Of a stretch of DNA of 62,241 nt, positions 16,048 through 47,344 are shown one piece after another. The stretch covers positions 1-62,241 of the forward strand of contig JALONH010000017.1 of the NCBI GenBank assembly GCA_025455005.1. Direction: 5' to 3'. The DNA is from Cytophagaceae bacterium (GTDB lineage: Bacteria > Bacteroidota > Bacteroidia > Cytophagales > Cytophagaceae). Position numbers and translations under genes: made by a program. A model generated the notes under the pieces. It saw only the letters and a list, made by a program, of their open reading frames with translations. It did no database searches and was not told where the DNA came from. Positions within the stretch are counted from its first letter, which is position 1; the number at the start of each line of letters is the position of its first letter.

Positions 16048-16521
16048 TTATTCTTGAGCGTCAGCAGGTGCTTCAGAAGCGTCTGTAGATTCGTCAGTAG
16101 CTTTTTTAGAAGAACGACGAGTACGTTTAGCCGGTTTAGCTGCTGTATCTTTTACGTATGTTTCGTTAAAGTCCACTAATTCAATGATACACATTTCTGC
16201 ATTATCACCTATACGGTTACCTGTTTTAAGGATACGAGTGTAACCACCCGGACGAGAGGCTACTTTATCTGCTACTACACCGAAAAGTTCTTTTACAGAT
16301 TCCTTATTTTGTAAATAAGAGAATACAGTACGTCTATTGTTTAAGGAATCGTCTTTCGATTTTGTAACTAGAGGCTCTACGTATTTACGTAATTCTTTTG
16401 CTTTAGCCAAAGTGGTTGATATTCTCTTATGTAAGATAAGAGAAGACGCCATATTGGATAATAATGCTTTTCTATGAGTGACTGTTCTACCTAAGTGATT
16501 GTCTTTTTTTCCGTGTCTCAT
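16048..16521 (-). CDS. rplQ: 50S ribosomal protein bL17
   Basis: A 157-residue large-subunit protein near the exit tunnel. The N-terminus carries the family signature ([13 protein letters not shown] followed by HRKALLSNM). The core ends near residue 125. After it comes a low-complexity tail of basic residues followed by an acidic, Ala/Glu/Asp-rich end, longer than in E. coli. It is the last gene of the S10-spc-alpha block, 5 bp after rpoA, and is followed by a terminator. Confidence 0.98.
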
Positions 16522-16526
16522 GTCGA

Positions 16527-17516
16527 TTAATCTTCGTCAAGTTTATACTTAGAGGTATCCATTCCGAATAGGAGGTTCTTGTCTTGCATTAGTTGCTCTA
16601 ATTCAGCCAATGACTTTTTACCGAAATTACGGAATTTCATCATATCGGTAATATCCAAGGCAGCTAGTTCACCTAAAGTTTTGATGTCTGCTGCTTTTAG
16701 GCAGTTATAAGCGCGTACAGAAAGATCCAAATCAGCTAATGGAGTCTTTAATAACTTGCGCATATGTAGGAATTCCTCATCTACAGTTTCTTCTTCTTCC
16801 GCTTTTACTGTTTCAAACGTCATCGTTTGATCAGAGAATAACATGAAGTGTTTTATTAAGATGTTGGCTGCTCCTTTTAGAGCATCTTCCGGGTGGATAG
16901 ACCCATCCGTGGATACTTCAATTACTAATTTTTCGTAATCTGTACGTTGTTCAACACGCGTATTTTCTACGCTGAACTTTACGTTTTTGATAGGGGTGAA
17001 AATAGCATCGATGGGAATATAACCGAACACTTGTTCTGCCGGTTTGTTTTCTTCCGCTGATACATAACCTCTACCTTTTTCGATTGTTAATTCGATATCT
17101 AAATTTGACTCGTTATCCAAATTACAAATCACTAATTCAGGATTTAAAATTTGGAATGCAGATGTAAATTTAGCGATATCACCTGCTTTGAAACTAGCTT
17201 GTTTTTTAAGGCTAACAACGATTTTACTTTCGTTAATGTCAGCAACTTTTTTGAAACGTACTTGCTTCAAGTTTAGGATGATTTCCGTTACATCTTCTCT
17301 TACTCCAGAGATCGTGGAGAATTCATGTAACACACCTGGAACTTTTATTCCGGTGATAGCATAACCCTCTAAAGAAGAAAGTAACATTCTTCTAAGAGCG
17401 TTACCGATGGTAACTCCATAACCTTTTTCAAGTGGTTTGAACTCAAACAGACCTTGGAAGTCGTCTGCTTTTTCCATTACCACTTTTTCAGGCATCTGAA
17501 AAGAAAGAATAGACAT
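16527..17516 (-). CDS. rpoA: RNA polymerase alpha subunit
   Basis: A 329-residue alpha subunit that dimerises to start core enzyme assembly. The N-terminal domain (about 1-230) contains [20 protein letters not shown], the dimerisation segment. A flexible acidic linker (EEEETVDEE) leads to the C-terminal domain (about 250-315) with helix-hairpin-helix elements ([26 protein letters not shown]) for DNA and activator contacts. The gene lies between rpsD and rplQ, the conserved alpha-operon position. Confidence 0.99.
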
Positions 17517-17545
17517 AGTGCTATATATTCGATTAAAGGATTGGA

Positions 17546-18151
17546 TTATTTAGAATATAACTCGACGATTAACTGAACTTCGATATTTTCAGGAATTTCA
17601 GAACGTTGAGGGTAAGTAACAAATTTACCGGATAGTTGAGCGTTATCCCACTCTAACCATGTAAACTTTTTAGCGCTGTGTGTAGAAAGGCTATCTGTGA
17701 TGGATTCTAAGGACTTGGATTTCTCCCGTACACCTAAAACATCTCCCGGCTTAAGTTGGAAAGACGGGATATTAACAACAGAGCCGTTAACTACAATATG
17801 CTTGTGTAATACTAACTGACGAGCTGCTCTTCTAGTAGGAGCAATACCCATTCTGTATACTGTATTATCTAAACGAGACTCTAACAATTTTAATAGATTC
17901 TCCCCAGTGATACCTTCTTTCTTAGAAGCTTCGTGGAAAGTTTTAGCAAACTGTCTTTCTAAAACACCGTATGTGTATTTAGCTTTTTGCTTCTCATTTA
18001 ACTGAGTAGCATATTCAGATTGTTTTCTTTTTTTGTTTCTTCCGTGTTGTCCGGCTGGATAATTTTTCTTAGCAAGAACTTTGCTATCGCCCATTACAGG
18101 CTCGCCGAAACGTCTGGAAATTCTAACACTTGGTCCGGTATAACGTGCCAT
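17546..18151 (-). CDS. rpsD: 30S ribosomal protein uS4
   Basis: A 201-residue primary 16S rRNA-binding protein. It has the N-terminal [17 protein letters not shown] segment of the bacterial family and an S4 RNA-binding domain (about 91-155; [34 protein letters not shown]). In many bacteria uS4 also represses its operon; no leader for that can be assigned here. It is located between rpsK and rpoA. Confidence 0.99.
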
Positions 18152-18183
18152 TAGTTTATTGGATTAATTTAATGCTAAAGAAA

Positions 18184-18594
18184 TTATACACGTCTCTTTT
18201 TAGGAGGACGACATCCGTTATGAGGCAATGGTGTTACATCTTTAATGATGGTCACTTCAATGCCGGTGTTTTGAATGGTACGGATGGCAGATTCGCGACC
18301 TGCACCGGGACCTTTAACAAACACTTCACACTTTCTCATTCCAGCTTCAAATGCGACAGTGGCGCAATTTTGAGCGGCAACTTGAGCTGCGTAAGGGGTA
18401 TTTTTCTTAGATCCTCTGAAACCCATTTTCCCTGCTGAAGACCAGGATATTACTTGTCCTGTAGAATTCGTAACAGAAATAATGATGTTATTGAAAGTAG
18501 CTTTGATGTGTACTTGACCTGTAGGTTCAACTACTACTACTCTCTTTTTTGCTTTATCTTTTCTCTTGGCAGAGGCTGAATTTTGTTGTGCCAT
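18184..18594 (-). CDS. rpsK: 30S ribosomal protein uS11
   Basis: A 136-residue platform protein that contacts the mRNA exit region. Conserved segments are [32 protein letters not shown] and the basic end [12 protein letters not shown]. The N-terminus has a short basic extension. It is positioned between rpsM and rpsD as in most bacteria. Confidence 0.99.
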
Positions 18595-18628
18595 ATCTGA
18601 ATAAATCGTTCAGTGTTGCGATTAATTA

Positions 18629-19006
18629 TTATTTAGTAGCTTTTTTCTTGTTCGCTACTGTCTTACGTTTACCTTTACGGGTACGGCAGTTATTTTTCGT
18701 ACGTTGACCACGAACCGGTAAACCTTTTCTATGACGAAGACCACGGTAACAACCGATATCCATCAAACGCTTAATGCTTAATTGTACCTCAGATTTAAGT
18801 ACACCTTCTGTTTTGTACTCACCTGAAATTACGTTACGAACAGCCCCTGATTCTTCATCGGTCCACTCGCCTACTTTTTTATCCCAATCAACACCCGCTT
18901 TTGATAAAATGCGTTGAGCTGACTTACGGCCAATACCATAAATGTAAGTCAAAGAGACTTCGCCTCTTTTGTTGTCTGGAATATCTACACCGGAAATCCT
19001 TGCCAT
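18629..19006 (-). CDS. rpsM: 30S ribosomal protein uS13
   Basis: A 125-residue protein of the 30S head that makes subunit bridges. Conserved features are [25 protein letters not shown], the helix-two-turns-helix region, and the basic tail [27 protein letters not shown]. It directly follows rpmJ. Confidence 0.99.
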
Positions 19007-19019
19007 AGTATTAATTCAA

Positions 19020-19136
19020 TTAACCTTGTCTTTGTTTAAATCTTGGATTCTTCTTGTTGATTACAAATAGTTTTCCGTGTCTACGGATAACTTTGCATTC
19101 AGCGCTTCTTTTTTTGATCGATGCTTTAACTTTCAT
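19020..19136 (-). CDS. rpmJ: 50S ribosomal protein bL36, zinc-free form
   Basis: A 38-residue protein ([20 protein letters not shown], then a [18 protein letters not shown] ending). The ATG is at 19134-19136 and the TAA at 19020-19022. Only Cys14 remains of the usual CxxC...C..H zinc site, so this is the zinc-free variant, which does not depend on zinc supply. It sits between infA and rpsM as expected. Confidence 0.95.
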
Positions 19137-19162
19137 CGCCGTATTGTTTAGAGTTTCTTAAA

Positions 19163-19381
19163 TTATTTGTACCGATATACAATTCTACCTTTTGATAAAT
19201 CATACGGAGACATTTCTAACCGTATTTTATCTCCCGGTAATATTTTAATATAGTTCATTCGCATTTTACCGGAAATATGCGCGATAACTTGATGACCATT
19301 CGCTAATTCAACTCGAAACATCGCATTTGATAATGCTTCTACTATTGTTCCATCTTGTTCAATTGACGCTTGTTTAGCCAT
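19163..19381 (-). CDS. infA: Translation initiation factor IF-1
   Basis: A 72-residue OB-fold protein that binds the 30S A site during initiation. Conserved segments are [42 protein letters not shown] and the end [13 protein letters not shown]. It follows map by 9 bp and precedes rpmJ. Confidence 0.99.
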
Positions 19382-19390
19382 TCAGTTTTA

Positions 19391-20176
19391 TTATTTTTTA
19401 TTCTTTAGTACTTCTTCAATATACTGAAATGTTGTGAGCACTTCAGGTTTTCCTTTCTTAATGGCAACTGTATGTTCAAAGTGTGCCGAAGGGGAACGAT
19501 CCGCTGTTCTAATCGTCCAACCATCTTTTTCTTGCATGACACTTTTTTTACCTAAGTTGATCATGGGCTCAATCGCAATTACTAAATTATTCTCTAGTTT
19601 CAAGCCTTTACCTTTTGCACCATAATTAGGCACTTCCGGTTTTTCATGTAGATGTTTACCTAAACCATGACCTACTAGTTCGCGTACTACAGAAAAGCCT
19701 TCTGATTCAACAAAGGATTGAATCGCATAACCTATATCACCAATTCTGTTTCCGGTAATGGCTTGTTCAATTCCTAAGTATAACGATTGTTTGGTTACAT
19801 CTAATAAGTGTTGTACGTCTGAATGTACATTACCGACCGGATATGTATAGGCACTATCACTATGATAACCTTTATACTTTACACCACAATCAACTGAGAT
19901 TATATCTCCTTCTTTTAGTACATATTCGCTCGGAAAACCATGTACCACTTGCTCATTAACTGAGATACAAAGTGTATAAGGAAATCCATTAAATCCTTTA
20001 AAAGAAGGCGTTCCACCATTATCAAGTATAAACTGGTAAGCGACTCTATCCAGTTCTATTGTTTTAACACCGGGTGCTATTAGTTTAGCTAATTCGCCAT
20101 GTGTTTTACCGAGAATATATCCACTTTCTCGGATAATTTCAATTTCTTCGTCCGACTTGTAATGCAATGTTGCCAT
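19391..20176 (-). CDS. map: Methionine aminopeptidase, type I
   Basis: Removes the initiator methionine from new proteins. It is 261 residues with the pita-bread fold. Metal ligands are visible as Asp96, Asp107 (HSDSAYTY), His170 (GHGLGKHLHE), Glu203 (AIEPMI) and a Glu near 234. His79 in VVHG matches the catalytic residue of the family. The start codon overlaps the secY stop (TAATG), implying coupled translation. Confidence 0.99.
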   Translation of the reverse strand: MATLHYKSDEEIEIIRESGYILGKTHGELAKLIAPGVKTIELDRVAYQFILDNGGTPSFKGFNGFPYTLCISVNEQVVHGFPSEYVLKEGDIISVDCGVKYKGYHSDSAYTYPVGNVHSDVQHLLDVTKQSLYLGIEQAITGNRIGDIGYAIQSFVESEGFSVVRELVGHGLGKHLHEKPEVPNYGAKGKGLKLENNLVIAIEPMINLGKKSVMQEKDGWTIRTADRSPSAHFEHTVAIKKGKPEVLTTFQYIEEVLKNKK

Positions 20177-21504
20177 TACGCTACAGGAGCAGTCTCCATT
20201 CTACCTCTAATACGACCGGATTCCATCATCCCATCATATTTTCTCATCAGAAGGAAACTTTCAATTTGTTGTAGTGTATCTAACACAACACCAATTAAGA
20301 TTAGCAAAGAAGTACCACCATAGAATGCAGCAAACTCCCGCTCAATATTTGCCATGTAAGCAAAGGCCGGCAATATAGCAATTAAGGATAAAGCTAAAGC
20401 TCCCGGAAGGGTTATCTTTGTAATTACATCGTCAATGAAATTGGAAGTATCTTGTCCCGGTTTAACACCTGGAATAAAACCACCGTTACGTTTCAAATCA
20501 TCTGCAATTTGATTAGGGTTCACAGTTATGGCTGTATAGAAATAAGTAAATAACACTATTAAAACAACAACTGTAAGATTATATTGCCATGATGTGAAAT
20601 CACTCATTACACGTGCCATTGTAATGGCCCATTCATAACTTTCTCCTAATGTATTTCCAACTAAAGCCGGAACAATCATAATCGCTTGAGCGAAAATGAT
20701 AGGCATCACACCGGCTGAGATTAATTTTATAGGTAAATATTGACGTTGACCTATGATTTGCTTCCCACCGGCAGCTTGTTTAGCATATTGTACTGCTATT
20801 CTACGAGTTGCTTGTTGAATTAAGACTACAAACATGATAATTGCAAATAATGCAAACAATTCTAATATCAATGGTAATATACCTTTAACACCTTTAGAAA
20901 CTACTTCACCGGATAGTGCAAAAGGTAATCTTGAAATAATACCTACCATGATTAACATAGAGATACCATTACCAATACCTTTTTCAGTTATACGTTCACC
21001 TATCCACATACAGAACATGGTTCCGGACAATAAAATAGATAATCTCAGAAAATGGTAAAAAGGTGTATTCATACCTTCGAACAAATTTTCCGGCGTAACT
21101 TCACTTGATAAATAAGCATACCCTTGAACTATTGTTATTAGGATCGTCAAATATCGAGTGTATTGATTAATCGTTTTTCTTCCAGATTCACCGTCTTTTT
21201 GTAAACGTTGAAAGTAAGGAACTGCGAACGTCAATAATTGTAATACTATAGATGCAGAGATATAAGGCATAATTCCTAAAGCAAAAACTGATACGTTGTT
21301 AAATGCTCCACCGGAAAATGTATTTAATATACCTAAATAACCTTCGTTACTTTCAGCTGCAGTTATCGCATCCGGATTTACTCCGGGTAATACTACAAAT
21401 GATCCTAATCGGAATACCGCTAAGAACATTAAAGTAGTAAGAATTCGAGTGCGAAGTTCCTCGATCTTAAAAATATTAGATATGGTATCTATAAACTTTT
21501 TCAT
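20176..21504 (-). CDS. secY: Preprotein translocase subunit SecY
   Basis: The central channel of the Sec translocon, 442 residues with about ten membrane helices. Recognisable segments include RLGSFVVLPGVNPDA in the first helix and plug region, GIGNGISMLI, and the cytoplasmic loop RRIAVQYAKQ with its basic residues. Its partner SecE is encoded at 45532-45714. The start overlaps the rplO stop by one base and its stop overlaps the map start. adk, which often follows secY in other phyla, is not present. Confidence 0.99.
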   Translation of the reverse strand: MKKFIDTISNIFKIEELRTRILTTLMFLAVFRLGSFVVLPGVNPDAITAAESNEGYLGILNTFSGGAFNNVSVFALGIMPYISASIVLQLLTFAVPYFQRLQKDGESGRKTINQYTRYLTILITIVQGYAYLSSEVTPENLFEGMNTPFYHFLRLSILLSGTMFCMWIGERITEKGIGNGISMLIMVGIISRLPFALSGEVVSKGVKGILPLILELFALFAIIMFVVLIQQATRRIAVQYAKQAAGGKQIIGQRQYLPIKLISAGVMPIIFAQAIMIVPALVGNTLGESYEWAITMARVMSDFTSWQYNLTVVVLIVLFTYFYTAITVNPNQIADDLKRNGGFIPGVKPGQDTSNFIDDVITKITLPGALALSLIAILPAFAYMANIEREFAAFYGGTSLLILIGVVLDTLQQIESFLLMRKYDGMMESGRIRGRMETAPVA

Positions 21505-21956
21505 TATACAATAACAGTTGCTTTACCACCTGCTTTTTCAATTGCAGCGATTGCTGCAGCGGAAAAAGCGTGTACTTTTACCTCTGCTTTCAATGAACCA
21601 GCCTCACCACGAGCCAATACTTTTACTCTATCATTTTTGGAAACTAAACCATTATTAAATAATAGCTCTACATCGATGACAGTAGCCTTTGTTGATTCAG
21701 CTAAAGATACCAAAGTATCTAAGTTAATAGGCTTATATTCTACTCTATTAAGAGGTTTGAAACCAAATTTAGGTACTCTTCTTTGTAAAGGCATTTGACC
21801 ACCTTCAAAACCAACTTTAGTAGAGTAACCAGATCTTGATTTGGCACCTTTATGACCTCTAGTGGATGTACCACCCATACCAGAACCTGGTCCACGACCA
21901 ATTCGTTTGGATGATTTTACAGAGCCTTTAGCAGGTTTTAATGTATGAAGTTTCAT
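21504..21956 (-). CDS. rplO: 50S ribosomal protein uL15
   Basis: A 150-residue 23S-binding assembly protein. The Gly/Arg-rich N-terminus (KRIGRGPGSGMGGTSTRGHKG) and the GFEGGQMPLQRRVPKFGF segment are diagnostic. It follows rpsE with only 19 bp between them, leaving no room for rpmD, which normally stands here. Confidence 0.99.
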   Translation of the reverse strand: MKLHTLKPAKGSVKSSKRIGRGPGSGMGGTSTRGHKGAKSRSGYSTKVGFEGGQMPLQRRVPKFGFKPLNRVEYKPINLDTLVSLAESTKATVIDVELLFNNGLVSKNDRVKVLARGEAGSLKAEVKVHAFSAAAIAAIEKAGGKATVIV

Positions 21957-21975
21957 AATACTTTAGTATTGGTAA

Positions 21976-22494
21976 TTAACCATTAAATACTTTTGACATC
22001 GTTACTCCACGTTGCATGGCAACTTTATGTGGAGCTCTCATTTTTAACAAAGCATCAATTGTTGCTTTCACAACATTGTGAGGATTGGAAGAACCTTTAG
22101 ACTTAGCTAAAACGTCTTTAATCCCTGCGCTTTCAAATACGGCACGCATCGCCCCCCCTGCAATAACCCCTGTACCGGGAGCAGCAGGTTGAACATACAC
22201 AAGGCCACCGCTATATTTACCCATCATTGGATGTGGTAACGTTCCATTAATAACGGGAACTTTAATTAAGTTCTTTTTAGCATCATCAATAGCTTTTGTA
22301 ATAGCATCCGTAACTTCGTTTGCTTTTCCTAAGCCATGACCTACTACGCCATTTCCATCACCTACTACAACCACAGCAGCAAAGCTAAAACGACGTCCGC
22401 CTTTTACTACTTTAGCTACACGATTAATAGCGACAACGTGTTCTTTTAATTCGATTTCGCTCGCTTTAACGGATCTTGTATTTGCTTGAGACAT
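21976..22494 (-). CDS. rpsE: 30S ribosomal protein uS5
   Basis: A 172-residue protein at the mRNA entry site, involved in decoding fidelity. It contains the double-stranded RNA-binding domain ([25 protein letters not shown]) and the [19 protein letters not shown] segment. It lies between rplR and rplO, with rpmD absent downstream. Confidence 0.99.
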
Positions 22495-22515
22495 AAATTC
22501 TTTCTTAATCGATTG

Positions 22516-22866
22516 TTAGAATGCTAAACCGCCTTCACGGGCACCTTCAGCTAATGATTTTACACGACCATGGTATAGAAAACCATTACGATCGAATATC
22601 ACTTGGGATACACCGGCAGAAGCGGCTTTTTCCGCAAGTTTCTTACCTACTAATTTAGATAGGTCAGATTTAGTTCCTTTTTCTGCTTTAAGTTCAGCAG
22701 TGGAACAACTTGCAATTGTGTGCCCTTTGATATCATCTACTAATTGAGCGTAGATACCTGTATTACTTCTGAATACAGTCAATCTTGGCTTCTCAGCGGT
22801 ACCGGAAATTTTTTTACGAATACCTCTTTTAATTCTGAGTCTTCTAAGATCTTTCTTAGTTGCCAT
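22516..22866 (-). CDS. rplR: 50S ribosomal protein uL18
   Basis: A 116-residue 5S rRNA-binding protein of the central protuberance. Conserved segments are RKKISGTAEKPRLTVFRSN, YAQLVDDIKG and the FDRNGFLYHGRVKSLAEGAREGG ending. Its position between rplF and rpsE is conserved. Confidence 0.99.
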   Translation of the reverse strand: MATKKDLRRLRIKRGIRKKISGTAEKPRLTVFRSNTGIYAQLVDDIKGHTIASCSTAELKAEKGTKSDLSKLVGKKLAEKAASAGVSQVIFDRNGFLYHGRVKSLAEGAREGGLAF

Positions 22867-22874
22867 CGTTCTTA

Positions 22875-23429
22875 TTATTTAGCTGCAGTTTTACCTGCTT
22901 TACGTCTAACAATCTCACCAACAAAGCGAACACCTTTACCTTTGTAAGGTTCAACTTTTCTTAACGATCTAACTTTAGCAGCAAATTGACCAATTAATTG
23001 TTTGTCAATCCCTTCCATAGTAACAATCGGATTTTTACCCTTTTCAGTAACCGCAGAAACGGTGATTTCTTTAGGGAAAACTAAATAGATACCATGAGAG
23101 TATCCTAAGCTTAGTTCTAATACATTGTTTGTAACGGTAGCTTTATACCCTACCCCAACAAGTTCTAGATTGGTTTTATAACCAGTGCTAACACCTGTAA
23201 CCATATTGTTGATCAATGTTCTATAAAGGCCGTGAAGGGCTTTATGACGTTTTTGATCGGTTGGTCTGGTCACTACCACCTTTCCAGCTTCTACGGTAAC
23301 TTGAATATCTGCATCTACCTTCTGTGTTAAAGAACCTTTAGGGCCTTTAACTGTAACTTCATTAGAAGAAGAAACAGAAACTTCAACTTTTTCCGGAAGC
23401 GTTACAGGTAATTTTCCTATACGTGACAT
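22875..23429 (-). CDS. rplF: 50S ribosomal protein uL6
   Basis: A 184-residue protein with two related domains, near the factor-binding centre. It begins MSRIGKLPVTLPEKV. The C-terminal signature is RKVEPYKGKGVRFVGEIVRRKAGKTA. It lies between rpsH and rplR. Confidence 0.99.
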   Translation of the reverse strand: MSRIGKLPVTLPEKVEVSVSSSNEVTVKGPKGSLTQKVDADIQVTVEAGKVVVTRPTDQKRHKALHGLYRTLINNMVTGVSTGYKTNLELVGVGYKATVTNNVLELSLGYSHGIYLVFPKEITVSAVTEKGKNPIVTMEGIDKQLIGQFAAKVRSLRKVEPYKGKGVRFVGEIVRRKAGKTAAK

Positions 23430-23460
23430 AATGAATTCGTCCGAAGTTTATTGTTAATTA

Positions 23461-23853
23461 TTAATATACGTAGCAAAGTACTTCACCACCGATGTTCATA
23501 TTTCTAGCTTCTTTGTCGGTCATTACGCCTTTTGAAGTAGATAATACTGCTATACCTAAACCATTTAATACTCTAGGCATATCATCCGCAGAAGTATATT
23601 GTCTTAGACCAGGTGTAGAGATACGCTCTAGACTAAGAATAGCAGATTCTTTTGTTACTGGATTATATTTAAGAGCTATTTTAATGTTGCCCTGAGGTCC
23701 AACATCTTCAAATTTATAGCTTTGAATATATCCTTTATCAAACAACACTTTAGTGATCTCCTTCTTTATATTAGAAGCAGGTACCTCAACGATGCGATGT
23801 CTTGCTTTTATCGCATTTCTGATTTTGGTAAGGAAATCGCCTATTGGATCCAT
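23461..23853 (-). CDS. rpsH: 30S ribosomal protein uS8
   Basis: A 130-residue 16S rRNA-binding protein needed for central-domain assembly. Conserved segments are [18 protein letters not shown] and the C-terminal [26 protein letters not shown]. It is separated from rpsN by 93 bp that contain a promoter-like -7 box and a hairpin, an unusual break inside the spc cluster. In E. coli uS8 is the spc-operon repressor, so the leader may be a control site. Confidence 0.99.
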
Positions 23854-23883
23854 ATTATTTTACTTTTTATTAAAGACATGAAA

Positions 23884-23899
23884 AGCCCTAAATAGGGCT
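23884..23899 (-). promoter_or_regulatory. Hairpin in the rpsH leader
   Basis: AGCCCTA (23884-23890) pairs with TAGGGCT (23893-23899), a perfect 7-bp palindromic stem with a very short loop. On the minus strand it lies directly after the candidate -7 box TAAATTTG and about 30 nt before the rpsH ATG, and is followed by TTTTC. It may be an internal terminator of upstream transcripts, a 5' stabilising stem or an r-protein binding site. Confidence 0.6.
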
Positions 23900-23900
23900 G

Positions 23901-23931
23901 CAAATTTAAATGATTTTTTTAAATTAATAAA
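23901..23931 (-). promoter_or_regulatory. Candidate internal promoter for rpsH
   Basis: On the minus strand: TTTA (23928-23931), 19-bp spacer, TAAATTTG (23901-23908), then CAGCCC. The -7 box is a full match to TAnnTTTG and the -33 box a 3-of-4 match at the same spacing as the other ribosomal promoters in this window. Confidence 0.6.
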
Positions 23932-23946
23932 GTAATTTTCTCAAAA

Positions 23947-24216
23947 TTACCAACTTGATTTGGTAATTCCTGGAATTTTACCGGCAGAAGCCAATTCTCT
24001 AAAGGTAACACGGGAAATTCCGAACTTACGCATATACCCTTTTGGACGACCGGTTAATTTACAACGATTGTGTAAACGAACAGGAGACGCATTTTTAGGT
24101 AATTTATCAAGTGCAAGATAATCACCAGCTTCTTTTAAAGCCTGGCGTTTTGCAGCAAATTTAGCTACTAACGCTTGTCTTTTTCTTTCTCTAGCTTTTA
24201 CGGATTCTTTAGCCAT
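23947..24216 (-). CDS. rpsN: 30S ribosomal protein uS14, zinc-free long form
   Basis: An 89-residue 30S head protein. The C-terminus [19 protein letters not shown] and [12 protein letters not shown] is diagnostic. There is no CxxC pair, so this is the zinc-independent long form rather than the 61-residue zinc form. It lies between rplE and rpsH. Confidence 0.99.
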
Positions 24217-24225
24217 AGTCAGTTC

Positions 24226-24780
24226 TTATTTTTTTAAGGAGGCGAAAGGCATCCCAAATGCTTTTAATAATTCAAAACTTTCTTCATCTGTATTGGCAGT
24301 AGTGACGAAGGTAATATCCATACCAGTGATTTTACTCACTTTATCGATAGATATCTCAGGGAAAATGATTTGTTCTTTAACACCTAAGGTATAATTTCCG
24401 CGTCCGTCAAAACCTTTGTCGCTTACCCCTCTGAAATCACGTACACGTGGTAGCGCAACAGATAATAAACGATCCATAAATTCGTACATTTTTTCACCTC
24501 TAAGGGTTACTTTAGCACCGATAGGTACACCTGCACGTAATTTAAAGTTAGAAACATCTAATTTAGATTTAGTAGCAACCGCTTTCTGTCCGGTGATCAT
24601 GGTAAGTTCATCTACACCTACATCGATCAATTTTTTATCCGCTACAGCAGCACCAATACCCTTATTTACTACGATTTTAGTAATCTTAGGGACTTGCATA
24701 ATGGATTTATACTGGAATTTATCCTTAAGACCAGCAACAATCTCTTTTGTATATTTTTCTTTTAATCTAGGATTAGCCAT
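24226..24780 (-). CDS. rplE: 50S ribosomal protein uL5
   Basis: A 184-residue 5S rRNA-binding protein of the central protuberance that contacts P-site tRNA. Conserved segments are [30 protein letters not shown] and [23 protein letters not shown]. Its start overlaps the end of rplX by 8 bp, so translation is coupled. Confidence 0.99.
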
Positions 24781-25108
24781 TTTTAATTACCTCCCCTGAT
24801 TTTTTTGCGTAACGCACTTTTTTACCTGATTTATCTTCTTTTTTACCAATACGAGTAGGTTTTCCTGATGTAGGATCTACATGCATTAATTTGCTTACAT
24901 GGATTGCAGCTTCTTTTTTTACGATCCCACCACCTTGAGGATTGTTAGCTGTAGGCTTATTATGTTTAGTAACCACATTGATGCCTTCTACGATAGCTCT
25001 TTCTTTTTCTAAATCTACAGAAAGAACTTTTCCGGTTTTACCTTTATCGTCACCGGATATTACAATCACAGTATCGTCTCTGCGTATGTGTAATTTTTTA
25101 GTTGCCAT
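24773..25108 (-). CDS. rplX: 50S ribosomal protein uL24
   Basis: A 111-residue assembly initiator near the tunnel exit with a KOW motif ([25 protein letters not shown]). The [21 protein letters not shown] segment is conserved. It follows rplN by 2 bp and overlaps rplE. Confidence 0.99.
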
Positions 25109-25110
25109 GA

Positions 25111-25479
25111 TTATAGTACTTCAGGGGCTAATGATACAATTTTCATGAATTGTTTATCTCTCAATTCACGAGCAACCGGTCCGAAGATACGAGTACCTCT
25201 TGGCTCATCGTTGTTATTCAACAATACGGCTGCATTATCGGAGAAACGGATATAAGATCCGTCTGAACGTTTTACTTCTTTCGTTGTTCTAACGATAACC
25301 GCTTTAGAAACAGTACCTTTTTTCATATTAGATGAAGAAAGGGCTGACTTTACGGTTACTACAATTTTATCACCAACAGATGCGTAGCGCTTACCGGTAC
25401 CGCCTAAAACACGGATAACCAACACTTCTTTAGCACCACTATTATCTGCAACTGTTAATCTGGATTCCTGCTGTATCAT
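25111..25479 (-). CDS. rplN: 50S ribosomal protein uL14
   Basis: A 122-residue subunit-interface protein. It begins [19 protein letters not shown] and ends in the conserved [26 protein letters not shown]. It lies 2 bp after rpsQ. Confidence 0.99.
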
Positions 25480-25481
25480 GA

Positions 25482-25745
25482 TTACTTAGCTTTTTCAATT
25501 ATTTCGACTAATCTCCAGCGTTTAATTTTACTTAATGGACGGGTTTCCATGATTTTAACGGTATCACCAATTCCACATTGGTTCTGCTCATCATGTGCCA
25601 TTAATTTGGTAGTCTTATGAACGAATTTACCATATTTAGTGTGTTTCACTTTACGTTCCACCGCTACTGTGATAGACTTCGTCATTTTGTTACTAACAAC
25701 TTTGCCAACTCTTTCTTTTCTGGCGTTTCTTTGAACTTGTTCCAT
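25482..25745 (-). CDS. rpsQ: 30S ribosomal protein uS17
   Basis: An 87-residue OB-fold 16S rRNA-binding protein. Recognised by [40 protein letters not shown] and [23 protein letters not shown]. It follows rpmC. Confidence 0.99.
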
Positions 25746-25777
25746 TTTAGTTCAATATTTTTTTAAGTGGATCCGAC

Positions 25778-25966
25778 TTATTTAGACTTCGAAGTTAATG
25801 CCGTATTCAACTGAGCGATTAAGCGACGCGATTGACGGATTTTCATTGGGTTTTCAATGGGAGAAATACCATGAGCAAATTTTAACTTTGCTAGGTTTTC
25901 TTTTTCAGCTGCGATCTTATTTTTAAGATCTGCTACTGTTAATGCGTTGATATCTGCAGCTTTCAT
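25778..25966 (-). CDS. rpmC: 50S ribosomal protein uL29
   Basis: A helical-hairpin protein at the tunnel exit, 62 residues from the ATG at 25966 (MKAADINALTVADLKNKIAA). A longer frame starting at 25996 would overlap rplP; I prefer the later ATG because it begins one base after the rplP stop (TAA-T-ATG) and matches the family N-terminus. The helix segment ENLAKLKFAHGISPIENPMKIR is conserved. Confidence 0.97.
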   Translation of the reverse strand: MKAADINALTVADLKNKIAAEKENLAKLKFAHGISPIENPMKIRQSRRLIAQLNTALTSKSK

Positions 25967-25967
25967 A

Positions 25968-26387
25968 TTATGCAACGTAATCCGGTCTAACAACAATCTT
26001 AGTTTTGAAAGGTAATTTTTGAGCTGCTAAACGTAGTGATTCTTGAGCAACATCTAGCGTAATACCACCGGATTCAAATATAATAGTACCCGGTTTCACA
26101 CAAGCTACCCAATATTCAGGAGCACCTTTACCTTTACCCATACGAACCTCTGCAGGTTTTTTCGTGATAGGTTTATCTGGGAATACTCTAATCCAAACTT
26201 GACCTTCGCGTTTCATCGCTCTTGTCATAGCTATACGAGCAGCCTCGATTTGACGGGCGGTTAACCAACCTGCCTCTAGGGATTTAATGGCAAATGAACC
26301 GAAAGCAATACGATGGCCGCGAGAAGCTATCCCTTTAACTCTCCCTTTTTGCTGCTTTCTAAATTTGGTACGTTTTGGCTGTAACAT
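25968..26387 (-). CDS. rplP: 50S ribosomal protein uL16
   Basis: A 139-residue protein near the peptidyl-transferase centre and A-site tRNA. Begins [19 protein letters not shown]. Conserved [22 protein letters not shown] and [11 protein letters not shown] segments are present. It lies between rpsC and rpmC. Confidence 0.99.
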
Positions 26388-26423
26388 GGCTTAACGTTTA
26401 TAATTTGGCTTATCGCCTTTTAA

Positions 26424-27185
26424 TTAGTTCGACTTTTTTCTTCTTCCTTCATTACCACCTCTTCGCTTCTTGTTGTTCCCACCTCTATCATTAGAAGGAG
26501 AATTATCAGAAGAAGAGTTTGCATTAGCGATCATTCCTACGTTAGGAGAAAGATCTCTTTTACCGTATACTTCACCTTTGAATATCCAAACTTTGATACC
26601 GATTTTCCCATACACCGTAAGAGCTTCACCAATGGCATAGTCAATATCAGCACGAAGAGTATGTAATGGGATACGACCTTCTTTATATTGTTCAGCACGA
26701 GCCATATCAGCACCTGCTAAACGACCGGATACTTTAACTTTTATACCTAAAGCACCTACTCTCATAGTAGAAGCGATAGCTTGTTTCATCGCGCGGCGGT
26801 AAGATATACGAGCTTGAAGTTGTTGAGCTATAGATTCAGCAACTAACATGGCATCTAACTCAGGACGTTTTATCTCATAGATATTGATTTGAACATCCTT
26901 ACCTGTAATCTTTTTTAATTCTTCTTTAATCTTATCCACTTCAGCACCACCTTTACCGATAACAACACCCGGACGAGCGGTATTAATGGTAAGTGTTATA
27001 CGCTTAATGGTTCTTTCGATTACAATTTTAGCAATCCCACCTTTAGGAATACGTGCTAAAACGTATTTACGTATTTGTTCGTCTTCTACAAGTTTGTCGG
27101 CAAATGTTTTACCTCCATACCAGTTAGAATCCCAACCTTTTACAACACCTAGGCGAATTCCTATCGGATTAGTTTTTTGTCCCAT
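26424..27185 (-). CDS. rpsC: 30S ribosomal protein uS3
   Basis: A 253-residue protein of the mRNA entry channel. Begins [13 protein letters not shown]. It has a KH domain with the GKGG loop ([16 protein letters not shown]) and the C-terminal domain [31 protein letters not shown]. The last ~35 residues are a disordered Asn/Ser/Gly/Lys-rich extension not found in E. coli. It is located between rplV and rplP. Confidence 0.99.
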
Positions 27186-27190
27186 GGTAA

Positions 27191-27733
27191 TTAGTTCGCT
27201 TTTTCTTTAGCTTTACTTTTTGAAGCAGTGCTTTTTTTAGCAGAGGCTTTCTTTGTTTGAGTTGATTTTTCTTCTGCTTCTGTTTTTACTTCAACAGGAG
27301 CTGCTGTAGGTGCATTCAACGCAGCCACAACTATCGTTACGTGGTTCGATCTTTTACGAACTCTATACGCTCTTCCTTGAGGTGCTGTGCGAAGTCTTTT
27401 TAATACTCTACCACCGTCTACGAAAATCTCTTTTACGTAAAGATCAGCATCTTCAACACGTATTTCTGTGTTTTTTGCTTGCCAATCTGCTACTGCAGAT
27501 AATACCAACTTCTCCAATTTCCGAGCACCTTGTTTTGCTTGGTATTTCAAGATACCTAATGCTTCGTTCACTCTTTTCCCACGAATGATGTCAGCTACCA
27601 ATCTCATTTTACGGGTAGAAGTGGGAACATTATTAAGTTTAGCCTGTACCGGACCTTTAGAAGCAGCTACTTTCGCAGCTTCTTTCTTTTGTCTTTTAAG
27701 TACAGATTTTTTTATTTTTTTAGTGGTTTCCAT
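27191..27733 (-). CDS. rplV: 50S ribosomal protein uL22 with long tail
   Basis: A 180-residue protein whose core loop lines the exit tunnel. Conserved core: [25 protein letters not shown] and [18 protein letters not shown]. It has a basic N-terminal extension (about 25 residues) and a Lys/Ala/Ser/Thr-rich C-terminal extension (about 40 residues), so it is clearly longer than the ~110-residue E. coli protein. It lies between rpsS and rpsC. Confidence 0.98.
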
Positions 27734-27761
27734 CGGAATACTTACTCTAGGATGAATCTAC

Positions 27762-28031
27762 TTATTTTTTCTTGGCTGCAGTATGCCCTTTAAACTGACG
27801 AGTAGGTGCAAATTCGCCTAATTTGTGCCCCACCATGTTCTCCGTTACATAAACCGGAATAAATTTATTCCCGTTGTGAACCGCAAAGGTGTGACCTACG
27901 AATTCTGGAGAAATCATGCTTCTTCTGGACCAAGTTTTGATCACAGATTTTTTAGTCGACTCATTCATGGTTACTACCTTGTTTTCTAGTCGGAAGTCGA
28001 TATACGGACCTTTTTTGAGTGAACGTGCCAT
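27762..28031 (-). CDS. rpsS: 30S ribosomal protein uS19
   Basis: An 89-residue 30S head protein. Begins [16 protein letters not shown]. Contains [22 protein letters not shown] and ends with [22 protein letters not shown]. It lies 2 bp after rplB. Confidence 0.99.
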
Positions 28032-28033
28032 TA

Positions 28034-28873
28034 TTACTTACTCAATCTTTTGTTAACTCTTTTTTGAACTATTAGATTCTTAGAATACTTGTTTTGCTTT
28101 CTGGTTTTACCACCTTTAGCATATAAGCCTTTTCTAGATCTTGGATGACCACCGGAAGCTCTACCTTCACCACCACCCATTGGGTGATCTACTGGGTTCA
28201 TTGCTACCCCTCTTACTCTAGGGCGAGATCCGAACCATCTATTTCTACCTGCTTTACCAACACTTAGATTCATGTGTTCTGCATTAGATACAGAACCAAC
28301 TGTAGCATAACAAGCAGATAAAACCAATCTCATTTCACCTGAAGGTAAACGCAACGTTGCATATTTGCCTTCGCGTGCTACTAATTGAGCATAAGAACCG
28401 GCGCTTCTTGCCATTGCTCCACCTTTACCAGGCTTTAATTCTACGTTGTGTACAATAGTACCAATCGGCATATCTGAAAGTGGTAAAGCATTACCAACTT
28501 CAGGAGCAATACCTGATCCGGATACGATTACAGTTCCTACTTGCAATCCTTGAGGTGCAATGATATAACGTTTTTCACCATCTGCATAAGTAAGTAAAGC
28601 GATACGAGCCGTTCTATTTGGATCGTATTCTACTGTCTTTACAGTTGCAGGAATATTATATTTATCACGTTTGAAATCTATGATACGATATTGTTGCTTA
28701 TGGCCACCGCCAATATAGCGCATCGTCATTTTACCGGAATTATTACGACCGCCGGATTTCTTTACTGATTTAACTAAGGATTTCTCAGGAGTAGACGCTG
28801 TAATTTCTTCAAAAGAAGGGCCTATTCTGAATCTAGTTCCTGGAGTTATCGGTCTGAATTTTTTAAGTGACAT
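28034..28873 (-). CDS. rplB: 50S ribosomal protein uL2
   Basis: A 279-residue protein required for subunit association and the peptidyl-transferase centre. The conserved [17 protein letters not shown] segment contains His230, equivalent to the residue implicated near the active centre. Upstream segments include [23 protein letters not shown]. It lies between rplW and rpsS. Confidence 0.99.
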
Positions 28874-28886
28874 TGTCGGCTCTCAG

Positions 28887-29174
28887 TTATAGGTTGCTGT
28901 AGAAATCAATGATTTCTCCGTCTTTTACTTTTACGATAGCTTTCTTGTAAGATGATGTTTTCCCATTTAAGAAAGCACCTTTAGCATATCTTGTTTTCTT
29001 TTTGCCCGGAGCTATCATGGTACGAACACCTTCCACGTTAACGCCGTATAGCTTTTCAACTGCATTCTTAATTTGAACTTTATTAGCTTTCTTTTCTACA
29101 ACAAAGCCATAAACGCCCTTTTCGTTTTGCGCAGTTATTTTCTCAGTAATTAATGGTTTCTTTAAGATACCCAT
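28887..29174 (-). CDS. rplW: 50S ribosomal protein uL23
   Basis: A 95-residue tunnel-exit protein, docking site for trigger factor and SRP. Recognised by LKKPLITEKITAQNEKGVYGFVV and the AVEKLYGVNVEGVRTM segment. It is encoded between rplD and rplB. Confidence 0.98.
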   Translation of the reverse strand: MGILKKPLITEKITAQNEKGVYGFVVEKKANKVQIKNAVEKLYGVNVEGVRTMIAPGKKKTRYAKGAFLNGKTSSYKKAIVKVKDGEIIDFYSNL

Positions 29175-29185
29175 GACTATAATTA

Positions 29186-29812
29186 TTAGTTGAGTAAAGC
29201 TTCAATTTTAGCAATAGACCCTTCTGATAATACAATTTTCTCAGCGTTAACTAAGTCGAAAGTATTAATTTGATCTGCTGTTACAACTTTTGCTTTAGGT
29301 AAATTTCTACTGGATAAAACAATGTTCTTATCGTTATCGGCTAGGACTAAAAGTGTCTTTGCGTTATCGATAGCTAGATTTTTAAGGATGGTTAAATACT
29401 CCTTTGTTTTAGGAGAATCGATAGAGAAGTTTTCTACAACTGATAGGTTGTTCTCTTTCAATTTGTAAGCTAAGGCAGATTTACGAGCCAAATCTTTTAC
29501 CTTTTTGTTTACTTTAAAACCATAATTTCTAGGTCTTGGTCCAAAAATAGTACCCCCACCTACAAACACCGGTGACTTACGGCTACCAGCTCGTGCCCCA
29601 CCTGTTCCTTTTTGACGTTTTAATTTTTTAGTAGAGAAGGAAACTTCTGCTCTTTCTTTTGCTTTATGTGTTCCTTGTCTCTGATTAGCTAAAAATTGTT
29701 TAACGTCTAAGTATATAGCATGATCATTCGGCTCTACCGCGAAAATGCTTTCAGAAAGTGTTACCTTCTTACCGGTTTCTTTTCCTTTTATTGATATAAC
29801 GGAGAGTTGCAT
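29186..29812 (-). CDS. rplD: 50S ribosomal protein uL4
   Basis: A 208-residue protein whose extended loop reaches the exit tunnel. The loop is visible as KKLKRQKGTGGARAGSRKSPVFVGGGTIFGPRPR. In E. coli uL4 also represses the S10 operon. Its start is 2 bp from the rplC stop. The 5' leader before rplC is the place where such control would act. Confidence 0.98.
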   Translation of the reverse strand: MQLSVISIKGKETGKKVTLSESIFAVEPNDHAIYLDVKQFLANQRQGTHKAKERAEVSFSTKKLKRQKGTGGARAGSRKSPVFVGGGTIFGPRPRNYGFKVNKKVKDLARKSALAYKLKENNLSVVENFSIDSPKTKEYLTILKNLAIDNAKTLLVLADNDKNIVLSSRNLPKAKVVTADQINTFDLVNAEKIVLSEGSIAKIEALLN

Positions 29813-29814
29813 GA

Positions 29815-30435
29815 CTATTTCTCAATTAAAACGTATGAATTTTTAGCCCCCGGTACAGACCCGCTGATTACAACTAGGTTTTGTTCAGGTATTAATTTTA
29901 AGATGGTAAGGTTTTGTACTTTTACACGATTATTACCCATTCTACCCGCCATGCGAGTTCCTGGGAATACACGTGCAGGGAAAGAACAAGCACCTACTGA
30001 ACCAGCGTGGCGTTGTCTATTGTGCTGCCCGTGAGTTTGACCACCCACACCACCGAATCCATGGCGTTTAACAACCCCTTGAAAACCTCTACCTTTAGAT
30101 GTTCCAACAACATCTACGAAATCGCCTTCTACTAGTACGTCTGCGATTGAAAGAGACTGACCCAGTTGAAACTCCGTTGTGAATTCTTTAAATTCAGCAA
30201 CTTTTCTTTTAGGAGTTACACCTGCTTTTTTAAAGTGACCTAACAACGGTTTGTTGGTGTTTTTTTCTTTTTTGTCATCAAACGCCAATTGTACTGCTGT
30301 ATAGCCGTCGGTCTCTACGGTTTTAATTTGCGTTACAACGCAAGGACCAGCTTCGATCACGGTGCATGGAACGTACTTTCCATTTGCATCGTACACGCTA
30401 GTCATACCGATTTTTTTACCAATTATGCCGGACAT
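29815..30435 (-). CDS. rplC: 50S ribosomal protein uL3
   Basis: A 206-residue assembly initiator. Begins [20 protein letters not shown]. The central loop near the peptidyl-transferase centre is [24 protein letters not shown]. It is the first gene after a dedicated promoter and leader, so it heads the S10 transcription unit here instead of rpsJ. Confidence 0.99.
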
Positions 30436-30499
30436 TATCCTTTATGTTTATAACAGACTATAAATATATTTTTTCACACCCTTCTCAAAAAAGGGACTG

Positions 30500-30530
30500 C
30501 AAAGTTAAGTAAAATTAACATTAACCCAAA
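30500..30530 (-). promoter_or_regulatory. Promoter of the rplC (S10) operon
   Basis: Minus strand: TTTG (30527-30530), exactly 19 bp, TAACTTTG (30500-30507), then CAGTCCC. Both boxes match the Bacteroidota consensus fully. The leader that follows can form a short CCCTT/AAGGG stem before a T/A-rich stretch to the rplC ATG. Confidence 0.85.
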
Positions 30531-30571
30531 TATTTAGGCGTTAAATTTAACTTGTTTTGAACCTTTTAAGA

Positions 30572-30604
30572 GAAAAAAAGAAGGATCAGGTAGCCTAATC
30601 CTTC
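30572..30604 (-). terminator. Intrinsic terminator of rpsJ (str operon)
   Basis: Stem GAAGGAT (30580-30586) with ATCCTTC (30598-30604), plus inner AGG/CCT pairing around TAG. On the minus strand it follows rpsJ by about 23 bp and is followed by a run of T. It separates rpsL-rpsG-fusA-rpsJ from rplC. Confidence 0.85.
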
Positions 30605-30627
30605 ATTAAATTTTAAAAACCTATAAA

Positions 30628-30933
30628 TCAGACTTTAATTTCAACATCCACTCCGGACGGAAGTTCTAATTTCATAAGTGCATCTACTGTTTTGGAGCTA
30701 GTAGAATAGATATCAACTAATCTTTTATACGTACAAAGTTGATACTGATCTCTAGCTTTCTTATTCACGTGTGGTGATTTAAGTACAGTGAAGATTTCTT
30801 TTTCTGTTGGCAAAGGAATAGGGCCGCTTACCACTGCACCTGTTGCTTTTACTGCTCTAACGATACGCTCAGAGGATTTATCTACTAAGTTGTGATCGTA
30901 AGACTTTAATTTTATTCTAATTTTTTGGTTCAT
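30628..30933 (-). CDS. rpsJ: 30S ribosomal protein uS10
   Basis: A 101-residue head protein that also pairs with NusB in antitermination. Recognised by [48 protein letters not shown] and the [12 protein letters not shown] end. It is placed 2 bp after fusA and followed by a terminator, so it belongs to the str transcription unit. Confidence 0.99.
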
Positions 30934-30935
30934 AC

Positions 30936-33038
30936 TTATTTGCTTACAGCACCTTTAGATTTTGCTATTACTGATTCTGCAATGTTTGCAGGTACGAATT
31001 CATAATGAGAGAAAGTCAATGTAGCTGACGCTCTACCGGAAGATATGGTTCTCAAATCTGTTACATAACCAAACAGTTCTCCTAATGGAACATCTGCTTT
31101 AATAACTTGTGAACCAGCCTTAGTATCCATACCTTTCATCATTCCACGGCGTCTGTTCAAATCACCTGTGATTGGACCTGTGTATTCATCCGGTGTTACT
31201 ACTTCAACGGACATAATAGGCTCCATCAATTTCGGAGAACATTTTACAGCAGCTTCTTTGAAGCCCATACGAGCTGCCAATTCAAATGATAATGAATCGG
31301 AATCGACATCATGGTATGATCCATGGAATAATTTCACACGTAACGCTTCAATTGGGTATCCTGCAAGAGCACCATTTTTCATGGAATCTTCAAATCCTTT
31401 TTGAACTGCCGGAATATATTCTTTTGGAATAACCCCACCGACAATTGCATTAACGAATTCCAAACCTTGTTTATCATCTTCACGCGGTCCGATTTCGAAA
31501 ACGATATCTGCGAACTTACCACGACCACCGGATTGTTTCTTATACACTTCGCGGTGTTCTACTTTAGATGTTAAAGCTTCTTTATATGCAACTTGAGGTG
31601 CGCCTTGGTTGATTTCCACTTTGAATTCACGACGCATACGGTCGATGATGATTTCTAAGTGTAATTCACCCATTCCACGTAAAATTGTTTGACCAGTTTC
31701 ATGGTCTGTAGATACATGAAGGGTTGGATCTTCTTCCACCAATTTCGCAATAGCTAAGCCCATTTTATCCATATCAGCCTGTGTTTTTGGTTCGATTGCA
31801 TAACCAATAACCGGCTCTGGGAAGTCCATAGACTCTAATACTATTTTCGATTTCTCATCACATAACGTATCACCAGTTTTAATATCCTTAAAGCCTACAA
31901 CAGCACCAATATCTCCACAGTGTAAACTGTCAATTTGATTTTGTTTGTTGGCATGCATTTGGAAAATACGAGAGATACGTTCTTTGCTGCTGGAACGAGT
32001 ATTGAATACATAAGAACCGGACTCCAACATACCGGAGTAAGAACGTACGAAACATAGTCTACCAACAAATGGGTCTGTAGCAATTTTGAATGCTAAAGCA
32101 CAGAAAGGGTCAGTAGCTACAGGCTTACGGACTACTTCATTTCCGGTATCCGGATCTGTTCCGATAATATTATCTCTATCTAGAGGTGAAGGAAGTAACT
32201 CCATCACATAATCCAACATTGTTTGAACACCTTTATTTTTGAAAGAGGAGCCACACAACATTGGAACAATTTTCATATCCAATACAGCTTGACGAAGGGC
32301 ATTTAAAATTTCAGCCTCCGAAATGGAATTTGGATCTTCAAAGAACTTTTCCATTAAGGTTTCATCGTAGTCCGCAACCGCTTCTAATAGTTTTTCTCTA
32401 TATTCGTTTGCTTCCTCTACCATATCCTCAGGGATTGGAATTTCAGTAAAGGTCATACCTTTATCGTGTTCATTCCAAACGATAGCTCTGTTGTTCACCA
32501 AGTCAACAACACCTTTGAATTGATCTTCCGCACCAATTGGTAATTGTAAAGGTACCGCATTGCTGCCTAACATTTCTTTCACTTGTTTACACACGTTTAA
32601 GAAATCAGCACCTTGACGGTCCATTTTATTAACAAAACCGATACGAGCAACTTTATAATTGTTTGCTAAGCGCCAGTTTGTTTCGGATTGAGGCTCTACA
32701 CCATCAACCGCACTAAATAAAAATACTAAACCATCTAATACACGAAGGGATCTGTTTACTTCAACAGTAAAGTCAACGTGCCCAGGGGTATCGATGATGT
32801 TTACATGGTATTTGTTATTTCTATAATTCCAATTAACTGTGGTAGCAGCAGAGGTAATGGTAATACCTCTTTCTTGTTCTTGCGCCATCCAGTCCATAGT
32901 AGCAGCACCTTCATGTACTTCACCTATTTTATGGTTAACACCGGCATAGTATAGAATACGTTCAGTAGTCGTAGTCTTACCCGCATCGATGTGAGCGGCA
33001 ATCCCTATATTTCTGGTAAATTTTAAATCGCGAGCCAT
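30936..33038 (-). CDS. fusA: Elongation factor G
   Basis: The GTPase that drives ribosomal translocation, 700 residues, full length. P-loop AHIDAGKT at 15-22, switch I RGITI near 57-61, DTPGH at 83-87 and NKMD at 137-140. Domain IV is visible in the [18 protein letters not shown] segment. It is located between rpsG and rpsJ, typical of the str operon. Confidence 0.99.
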
Positions 33039-45732: not shown

Positions 45733-45803
45733 CACGGGTGGAGAGATTCGAACTCCCATCAACGGTTTTGGAGACCGCTATTCTACCCTTGAACTACACC
45801 CGT
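45733..45803 (-). tRNA. trpT: tRNA-Trp (CCA anticodon)
   Basis: 71-nt cloverleaf on the minus strand. Acceptor stem ACGGGTG/CACCCGT, anticodon loop CTCCAAA with anticodon CCA, T-arm containing GTTCGAATC. No encoded 3' CCA. It sits between a consensus promoter and secE, so it is likely excised from the secE-nusG transcript. Confidence 0.97.
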
Positions 45804-45830
45804 AGGTGTCCCTTAATAAAAAAGGGACTG

Positions 45831-45861
45831 CAAAGATATCAACATTTTAAGAATAAACAAA
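45831..45861 (-). promoter_or_regulatory. Promoter of tRNA-Trp-secE-nusG-rplKAJL-rpoBC
   Basis: Minus strand: TTTG (45858-45861), exactly 19 bp, TATCTTTG (45831-45838), then CAGTCCC. Full consensus match. The -33 box overlaps the edge of the tuf terminator. Just downstream, GTCCCTT and AAGGGAC can form a perfect 7-bp stem at the start of the transcript (about 45807-45827). Confidence 0.85.
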
Positions 45862-45891
45862 TGGGTTTTTGTTGTAACACAAAAACCCATT
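45856..45891 (-). terminator. Intrinsic terminator of tuf
   Basis: Perfect 13-bp stem: AATGGGTTTTTGT (45860-45872) and ACAAAAACCCATT (45879-45891), 6-nt loop. It lies 18 bp after the tuf stop on the minus strand, followed by a T-rich stretch. Confidence 0.9.
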
Positions 45892-45909
45892 GTTATTCAG
45901 AGAGTTGTA

Positions 45910-47097
45910 TTATTTTAAAATCTCAGTAACCTGACCGGCACCTACTGTTCTACCACCTTCACGGATAGCGAAACGTAGACCTTTCTCCATAGCAACCGGA
46001 GCGATCAATTTAACTGTGATAGTGATGTTATCACCAGGCATAACCATTTCAGTACCTGCCGGCAATTCGATTTCACCTGTAACGTCAGTCGTTCTCATGT
46101 AAAACTGAGGACGGTATTTGTTAAAGAATGGAGTATGACGACCACCTTCTTCTTTAGAAAGAACGTAAACTTCAGCTTTGAATTCAGTGTGTGGTTTTAC
46201 TGAACCCGGTTTACAGATTACCATACCACGTTTGATATCCGTTTTTTCGATACCACGTAATAATAAACCTACGTTATCACCTGCTTCACCTCTGTCAAGG
46301 ATTTTACGGAACATTTCCACACCAGTAACAGTAGATTTTAAGTTTTCAGCACCGAAACCGATAATATCAACTGCTTCACCAGAGTTGATTACACCTCTTT
46401 CGATACGACCTGTAGCTACTGTACCACGACCTGTAATCGAGAATACGTCTTCTACCGGCATTAAGAAAGGAAGGTCAACTAAACGAGCAGGAATTGGAAT
46501 ATCTTTATCAACGGCATCCATTAAAGCTTCAATTGTTGCAACCCATTTTGCATCACCATTCAAACCACCTAAAGCAGAACCTTTGATGATAGTCATAGTA
46601 TCGCCAGGGAAGTTATAGAAACTTAATAATTCGCGAACTTCCATTTCAACTAATTCTAATAATTCAGGATCATCTACTAAATCTACTTTGTTCATGAAAA
46701 CAACCATAGAAGGTACACCTACCTGACGAGCTAAAAGGATATGCTCACGAGTTTGTGGCATAGGACCATCTGTAGCAGCAACCACAAGAATAGCGCCGTC
46801 CATTTGAGCAGCACCTGTAACCATGTTTTTCACATAATCCGCGTGACCTGGACAGTCAACGTGTGCATAGTGACGAGTAGCAGTAGCGTACTCAACGTGA
46901 GAAGTATTGATAGTAATACCTCTTTCTTTTTCTTCCGGAGCATTGTCAATTGTAGAGAAATCTCTTTTCTCTGCTAGACCTTTTTCCGCTAATACTTTTG
47001 TGATCGCAGCGGTTAATGTAGTTTTACCGTGGTCAACGTGACCGATTGTACCTACGTTTACGTGTGGTTTGGAACGGTCAAAATTCTCTTTTGCCAT
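45910..47097 (-). CDS. tuf: Elongation factor Tu
   Basis: The GTPase that delivers aminoacyl-tRNA to the ribosome, 395 residues, full length. GHVDHGKT at 19-26, RGITI around 59-63, DCPGH at 81-85 and NKVD at 136-139. It follows tRNA-Tyr, tRNA-Gly and tRNA-Thr and ends in a strong terminator, the same order as the E. coli tufB region. It is the only tuf copy in the window. Confidence 0.99.
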
Positions 47098-47161
47098 ATT
47101 TGAAAATCCTCAATTTAAGGGGTTATAAAACAATTTAATTGTTACACTTTAATTTCAAGAG

Positions 47162-47234: not shown

Positions 47235-47316
47235 TTACTCAATAACAAAAAGAGAAAGCATGTGCCATCTCTTTCTGTTGCTTGCCGGGATAACAACATA
47301 AATTGTACTCCGCAGC

Positions 47317-47337: not shown

Positions 47338-47344
47338 TTTGTTG

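Follow-up and report, generated by a model that had tools for sequence, protein, structure and literature searches.

The lineage represented by this genome, sister to Cytophaga, has very probably lost rpmD, the gene for ribosomal protein uL30, through a deletion in place, and its ribosome would work without the protein. The gene is absent from its usual slot between rpsE and rplO, both flanking genes are intact, and the closest relatives sampled keep rpmD there. Separate losses occurred elsewhere in the phylum.

Results

The rpsE-rplO junction

The window, that is, the whole stretch of DNA analysed here (62,241 bp), is the entire contig C26 of an assembly of 2,942,665 bases in 45 contigs, a draft rather than a closed genome (completeness 99.63%, contamination 0.08). 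The initial annotation had placed rpsE and rplO only 19 bp apart, and the ends of the two reading frames leave exactly that interval (Table 1). Neither neighbour is truncated: the product of rpsE has the median length of 79 named relatives, and that of rplO falls inside the 148-160 aa range of 80. Pfam searches identified 28 further genes of the cluster in the window, namely rplQ, rpoA, rpsD, rpsK, rpsM, rpmJ, infA, map, secY, rplR, rplF, rpsH, rpsN, rplE, rplX, rplN, rpsQ, rpmC, rplP, rpsC, rplV, rpsS, rplB, rplW, rplD, rplC, rpsJ and fusA. The earlier statement that the remaining S10 and spc genes are all present thus holds for these neighbours, with rpmD the only one absent.

Table 1. Coordinates of the features discussed, in window positions.
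Feature	Positions	Strand	Remarks
rpsE (uS5)	21976-22494	-	172 aa, C-terminus intact; Pfam PF00333/PF03719
rpsE-rplO spacer	21957-21975	-	19 bp, former rpmD slot
rplO (uL15)	21504-21956	-	150 aa, N-terminus intact; Pfam PF00828
secY	20176-21504	-	directly downstream of rplO in the spc cluster; Pfam PF00344
rplV (uL22)	27191-27733	-	180 aa, C-terminal extension
S10-spc-alpha ribosomal cluster, rplQ to fusA	16048-33038	-	only rpmD missing among the genes examined
Four clustered tRNA genes	45733-47526	-	side observation

A divergent uL30 or a remnant of the gene inside the window was considered and rejected. When a uL30 profile built from relatives was run against the 2934 six-frame reading frames of the window (at least 12 residues each), the best score was 6.5 bits (E 1.4); the 17 loci matched in the same run scored 88-113 bits. 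Read on the coding strand, the spacer contains a 6-bp inverted repeat, AATACT-AA-AGTATT, just before the start of rplO, which may be there by chance.

rpmD in related genomes

According to the initial annotation, uL30 normally lies between rpsE and rplO in Bacteroidota. To sample named relatives independently of uL30, we took the best 80 of 575 loci by rplO similarity, a choice that leans towards relatives of the query and includes one locus labelled Chlorobiota (L027). Both rpsE and rplO are present in 79 of these 80, the remaining one (L061) being truncated at a contig end, and in all 79 the two genes are separated by 185-385 bp holding a uL30 reading frame. The slot is thus usual, with the qualification that the gene has been lost recurrently in the phylum, including in a group outside the class.

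Within the family of the window organism, 14 of 19 sampled genomes gave a uL30 match, and in all 14, which were picked by that match and not by its location, rpmD lies between rpsE and rplO. A sample of the order gave uL30 matches in 268 of 291 genomes, leaving 23 negatives that include the window organism itself. We re-checked 19 of the 22 others with rpsE and rplO of the window as queries. Seven have rpsE directly beside rplO, with 4-12 bp between them: five genomes of genus g51 (family f9) and two of family f21 (G094 and G165, 0.7 Mb each), the start of rplO in G094 being uncertain and the length of its spacer hence unsure. The other 12 yielded no intact rpsE-rplO pair and are uninformative on uL30, because sequence is missing or the search missed the genes: in G145 just rpsE was recovered, at the edge of a contig, in G197 just a fragment of rplO, and in the remaining 10 neither gene. 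Since 12 of 19 order negatives gave no intact gene pair, we rejected the option of taking profile absence at face value. These uninformative negatives include four family mates (G171, G179, G197 and G203), and the window carries the sole verified uL30 loss in its own family.

To look beyond the order, we searched 392 genomes of the phylum that are at least 95% complete, and 64 gave no uL30 match. Twenty of these were listed: the window organism, 18 members of families f41 and f43, which lie outside its class, and one of f37. Among the 19 other than the window organism, 15 were tested for the rplO locus, which was recovered in 10 (two f41, eight f43) and in none of the remaining five. All 10 readable f41/f43 genomes have rpsE followed by rplO without uL30 (L119-L128, L189-L194), at a spacing of 19-28 bp in the six that were re-measured. 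The genomes of this group measure 3-4.7 Mb and are 99-100% complete; f43 may be Balneolaceae.

Phylogeny and number of losses

A tree built from the concatenated sequences of up to 15 cluster proteins placed the window as sister to the three genomes of genus g2, which we take to be Cytophaga, with an SH-aLRT of 99. A 31-row tree under a mixture model returned the same placement and the same support. The cluster proteins of the window are 81% identical to those of one of the three (G062), and its own genus is represented in the sample by a single genome. All three Cytophaga genomes keep rpmD in the slot, so the comparison with sister lineages that the initial annotation had suggested turned out in favour of loss. 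On these gene orders and trees, the absence of rpmD in the window is a derived state, the close relatives retaining the gene in place.

We counted changes on the first of these trees, which has 92 rows, among them 61 named loci (at least 13 genes each), 14 further rows of the window's family (f1) and 14 uL30-less rows. The absence requires at least four changes on this tree, and its starred branches force four. The position of the f21 pair is unsure because its branches are long, its composition is odd and the tree holds no uL30-bearing f21 genome; other genomes of f21 do have uL30, which speaks for a separate loss in that family. The losses in the phylum thus number four on the tree, or three (window, g51 and f41/f43) without the long-branched f21 pair. 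Forcing the window and g51 into one clade was rejected (AU test on a quick 31-row tree, p = 6.6e-6). Change counts on a tree are by themselves neutral between loss and gain. We read the changes as losses, the more sensible direction, since all 79 named loci with both flanking genes have rpmD in one slot and several independent losses have been inferred before (Yutin et al. 2012, PMC3353972). Most of the losses fell in genomes of ordinary size.

Possible compensation in rRNA and proteins

Compatible with loss, though improbable in our judgement, is the variant in which the place of uL30 in the 50S subunit has been filled, either by an rRNA enlargement of the chloroplast kind or by an unrecognised small or extended protein. 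The precedent is the spinach chloroplast ribosome, which lacks uL30 and carries a 20-nt insertion in H38 near the uL30 site; in the account of its authors, the insertion may compensate for the missing protein (PMC5071890). A further uL30 contact is described for Borrelia, where the pocket of an N-terminal uL30 extension is located at H39-H42, H89 and 5S rRNA (PMC10618245).

In those relatives whose 23S rRNA could be read, the H38 region speaks against such an enlargement. The stretch corresponding to E. coli 938-970 measures 33 nt, as in E. coli, in all five uL30-less Bacteroidota compared (G349, G353, G315, G397 and G094) and in all nine uL30-bearing ones, and no H38 insertion was found in the five. 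One of them, G315, is counted as uL30-less by profile search alone, because its rplO locus was not recovered. Over the wider stretch 830-1000, rows without uL30 measure 170-171 nt and rows with it 165-171 nt. The length of the stretch 1164-1185 ranges from 12 to 25 nt and shows no clear relation to the presence of uL30 (20, 25, 12 and 12 nt and one cut off without uL30; 12-25 nt with it); this stretch is close to where the aligned segment stops, and its alignment may be unreliable. By eye, two bases in the H38 region at about 940-965 (L130-L143) are both C in f41/f43 and in E. coli, and most of the remaining Bacteroidota rows have G at both; they do not follow the presence of uL30, and G182 differs.

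The 23S rRNA search behind these comparisons matched 14 of 30 genomes, and among the 16 misses are the window organism, G165 and each of the four g51 genomes in the search, so that the lack of a 23S match in the window organism says little. Contigs C26-C45, each examined over its first 7 kb or less, showed no 23S either. Contig C33 of this assembly ends in part of a 5S rRNA gene (L152, 4694-4771), which fits rRNA operons broken in the draft.

Among the proteins, lengths were compared for 15 members of the cluster, and all fall within the ranges of the named relatives except uL22, which exceeds every one of them: about 138-159 aa in 51 named relatives, against about 171-190 aa in the family. 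We rejected the extended uL22 as a substitute for uL30. Its length class is the same in the 12 of 14 uL30-bearing family members whose loci reach rplV, and the long uL22 is a family trait.

Searches for uL30 in the rest of the genome

The initial annotation had left open whether rpmD was lost or had moved, an rpmD gene elsewhere in the genome being what would speak against loss. We searched the whole assembly with two profile families and with the uL30 protein of a family member. PF00327 gave no match at E<=0.001, at which 13 of 14 control genomes matched; the exception, the cyanobacterium Synechococcus elongatus, was expected, cyanobacteria being known to lack uL30. Relaxing the threshold to E<=10 again gave no match with PF00327 (14 of 14 controls matched, 13 over the cut-off) or with TIGR01308 (13 of 14 matched, 9 over the cut-off). 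Synechococcus matched with both profiles at this level, showing that weak matches there can be chance. The relative's protein, run without a positive control, also found nothing at E<=10.

Relocation of rpmD within the genome, or onto a replicon outside the assembly, would need the gene to have gone unseen in this draft. The 45 contigs and the breaks at rRNA operons suggested by the 5S fragment leave some room for that, and a genome search can miss genes, rplO itself having gone unmatched in 5 of 15 genomes estimated as 99-100% complete. Against it stand the three blank searches of a genome estimated as nearly complete, together with the family pattern, in which all 14 of the uL30 genes detected occupy their place in the spc cluster, and we consider relocation very unlikely. 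Of the two options, loss was therefore supported and relocation was not. An assembly or consensus error that erased rpmD is less credible still: the genome is a draft seen as consensus only, but about 22 kb and 40 kb of contig lie on either side of the junction, both flanking reading frames have ordinary lengths, and what is missing amounts to nearly one reading frame.

Manner of loss

In G062 the rpsE-rplO interval of 194 bp consists of a 12-bp spacer, the 177-bp rpmD reading frame and 5 bp. The interval in the window is 175 bp shorter, nearly the reading frame alone. By eye, the first 12 bases of the window spacer agree with the left spacers of G062 and G015 at 8 and 7 positions, and its last 8 bases agree at 6 and 7 positions with the right ends of G062 and G015 counted from the rpmD stop; these likenesses are short and may be chance. 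As the missing length is about that of one reading frame and the spacer ends resemble both flanking spacers, deletion in place is the simplest account. The likeliest course of events is a deletion of rpmD where it stood, once the lineage had parted from Cytophaga, rather than a move or an oversight.

Under the preferred reading, deletion in place, about 175 bp would have been removed, probably in a single event, taking out the rpmD reading frame and sparing the spacers, so that rpsE would then run straight into rplO. The deletion would have been tolerated because uL30 is dispensable, with nothing specific taking its place, and the ribosome would function without the protein. E. coli survives deletion of rpmD.

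Discussion

For most ribosomal proteins, gene loss is exceedingly rare; uL30 is among the few exceptions. Yutin et al. (2012, PMC3353972) report that 145 of 995 bacterial genomes lack L30, name S21, L25 and L30 as the ancestral proteins most often missing, give cyanobacteria, chloroplasts and scattered bacteria as cases without uL30, and infer several independent L30 losses by Dollo parsimony. The cases described there resemble ours in that the gene is absent and the losses are several, independent and mostly shallow; ours differs in that it can be placed on the branch to one genus, represented by one genome, beside Cytophaga. In another source (PMC9035817), the presence of rpmD in minimal gene sets is taken as a sign of essentiality, and L30 is also noted as repeatedly missing. 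Among literature titles and abstract openings, none concerned uL30 loss in Cytophagales or in relatives of Balneola. The loss of uL30 as such has long been known; the well-placed instance beside Cytophaga is new.

Two other groups offer comparisons. CPR/Patescibacteria are described as usually lacking uL30 (PMC7137472, PMC9698310), an absence that is group-wide and accompanied by small genomes, whereas the window organism has a 2.94-Mb genome and its relatives in the family, where verified, retain rpmD. In Mollicutes, uL30 is reported in one sub-group only (PMC4014445), likewise a lineage-specific loss within a class, but in strongly reduced genomes. Genome reduction of the CPR or Mollicutes type was not found in the window organism, its assembly being smaller than the three Cytophaga genomes (4.0-4.4 Mb) yet by no means tiny. 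The absence of uL30 is therefore by itself no marker of a reduced or CPR-like genome. The spinach chloroplast 50S subunit shares the lack of uL30, but its 20-nt H38 insertion (PMC5071890) has no counterpart in the five uL30-less Bacteroidota.

Taking the cases together, uL30 may have been discarded three or four times in Bacteroidota, mostly in genomes of ordinary size and without rRNA enlargement of the chloroplast type, the 50S site being either empty or filled by an unrecognised element; we put this general reading at a little under an even chance. If it is true, the window lineage and Cytophaga form a natural pair for testing the role of uL30. A loss beside a cultured genus, with parallel losses in the order and the phylum, provides pairs of relatives in which the part played by uL30 in 50S assembly or function can be compared. 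For draft genomes in general, an apparent absence of uL30 calls for a check of the neighbouring genes, 12 of the 19 re-checked cases in the order being indistinguishable from unrecovered sequence.

Gene order in family f9, to which g51 belongs, differs in a further respect. Six of its loci (L178-L182 and L185), with or without uL30, hold at most 6 of 15 S10-spc genes in the stretch fetched, even in L179 and L185, where that stretch is long. This points to a split S10-spc cluster in the family.
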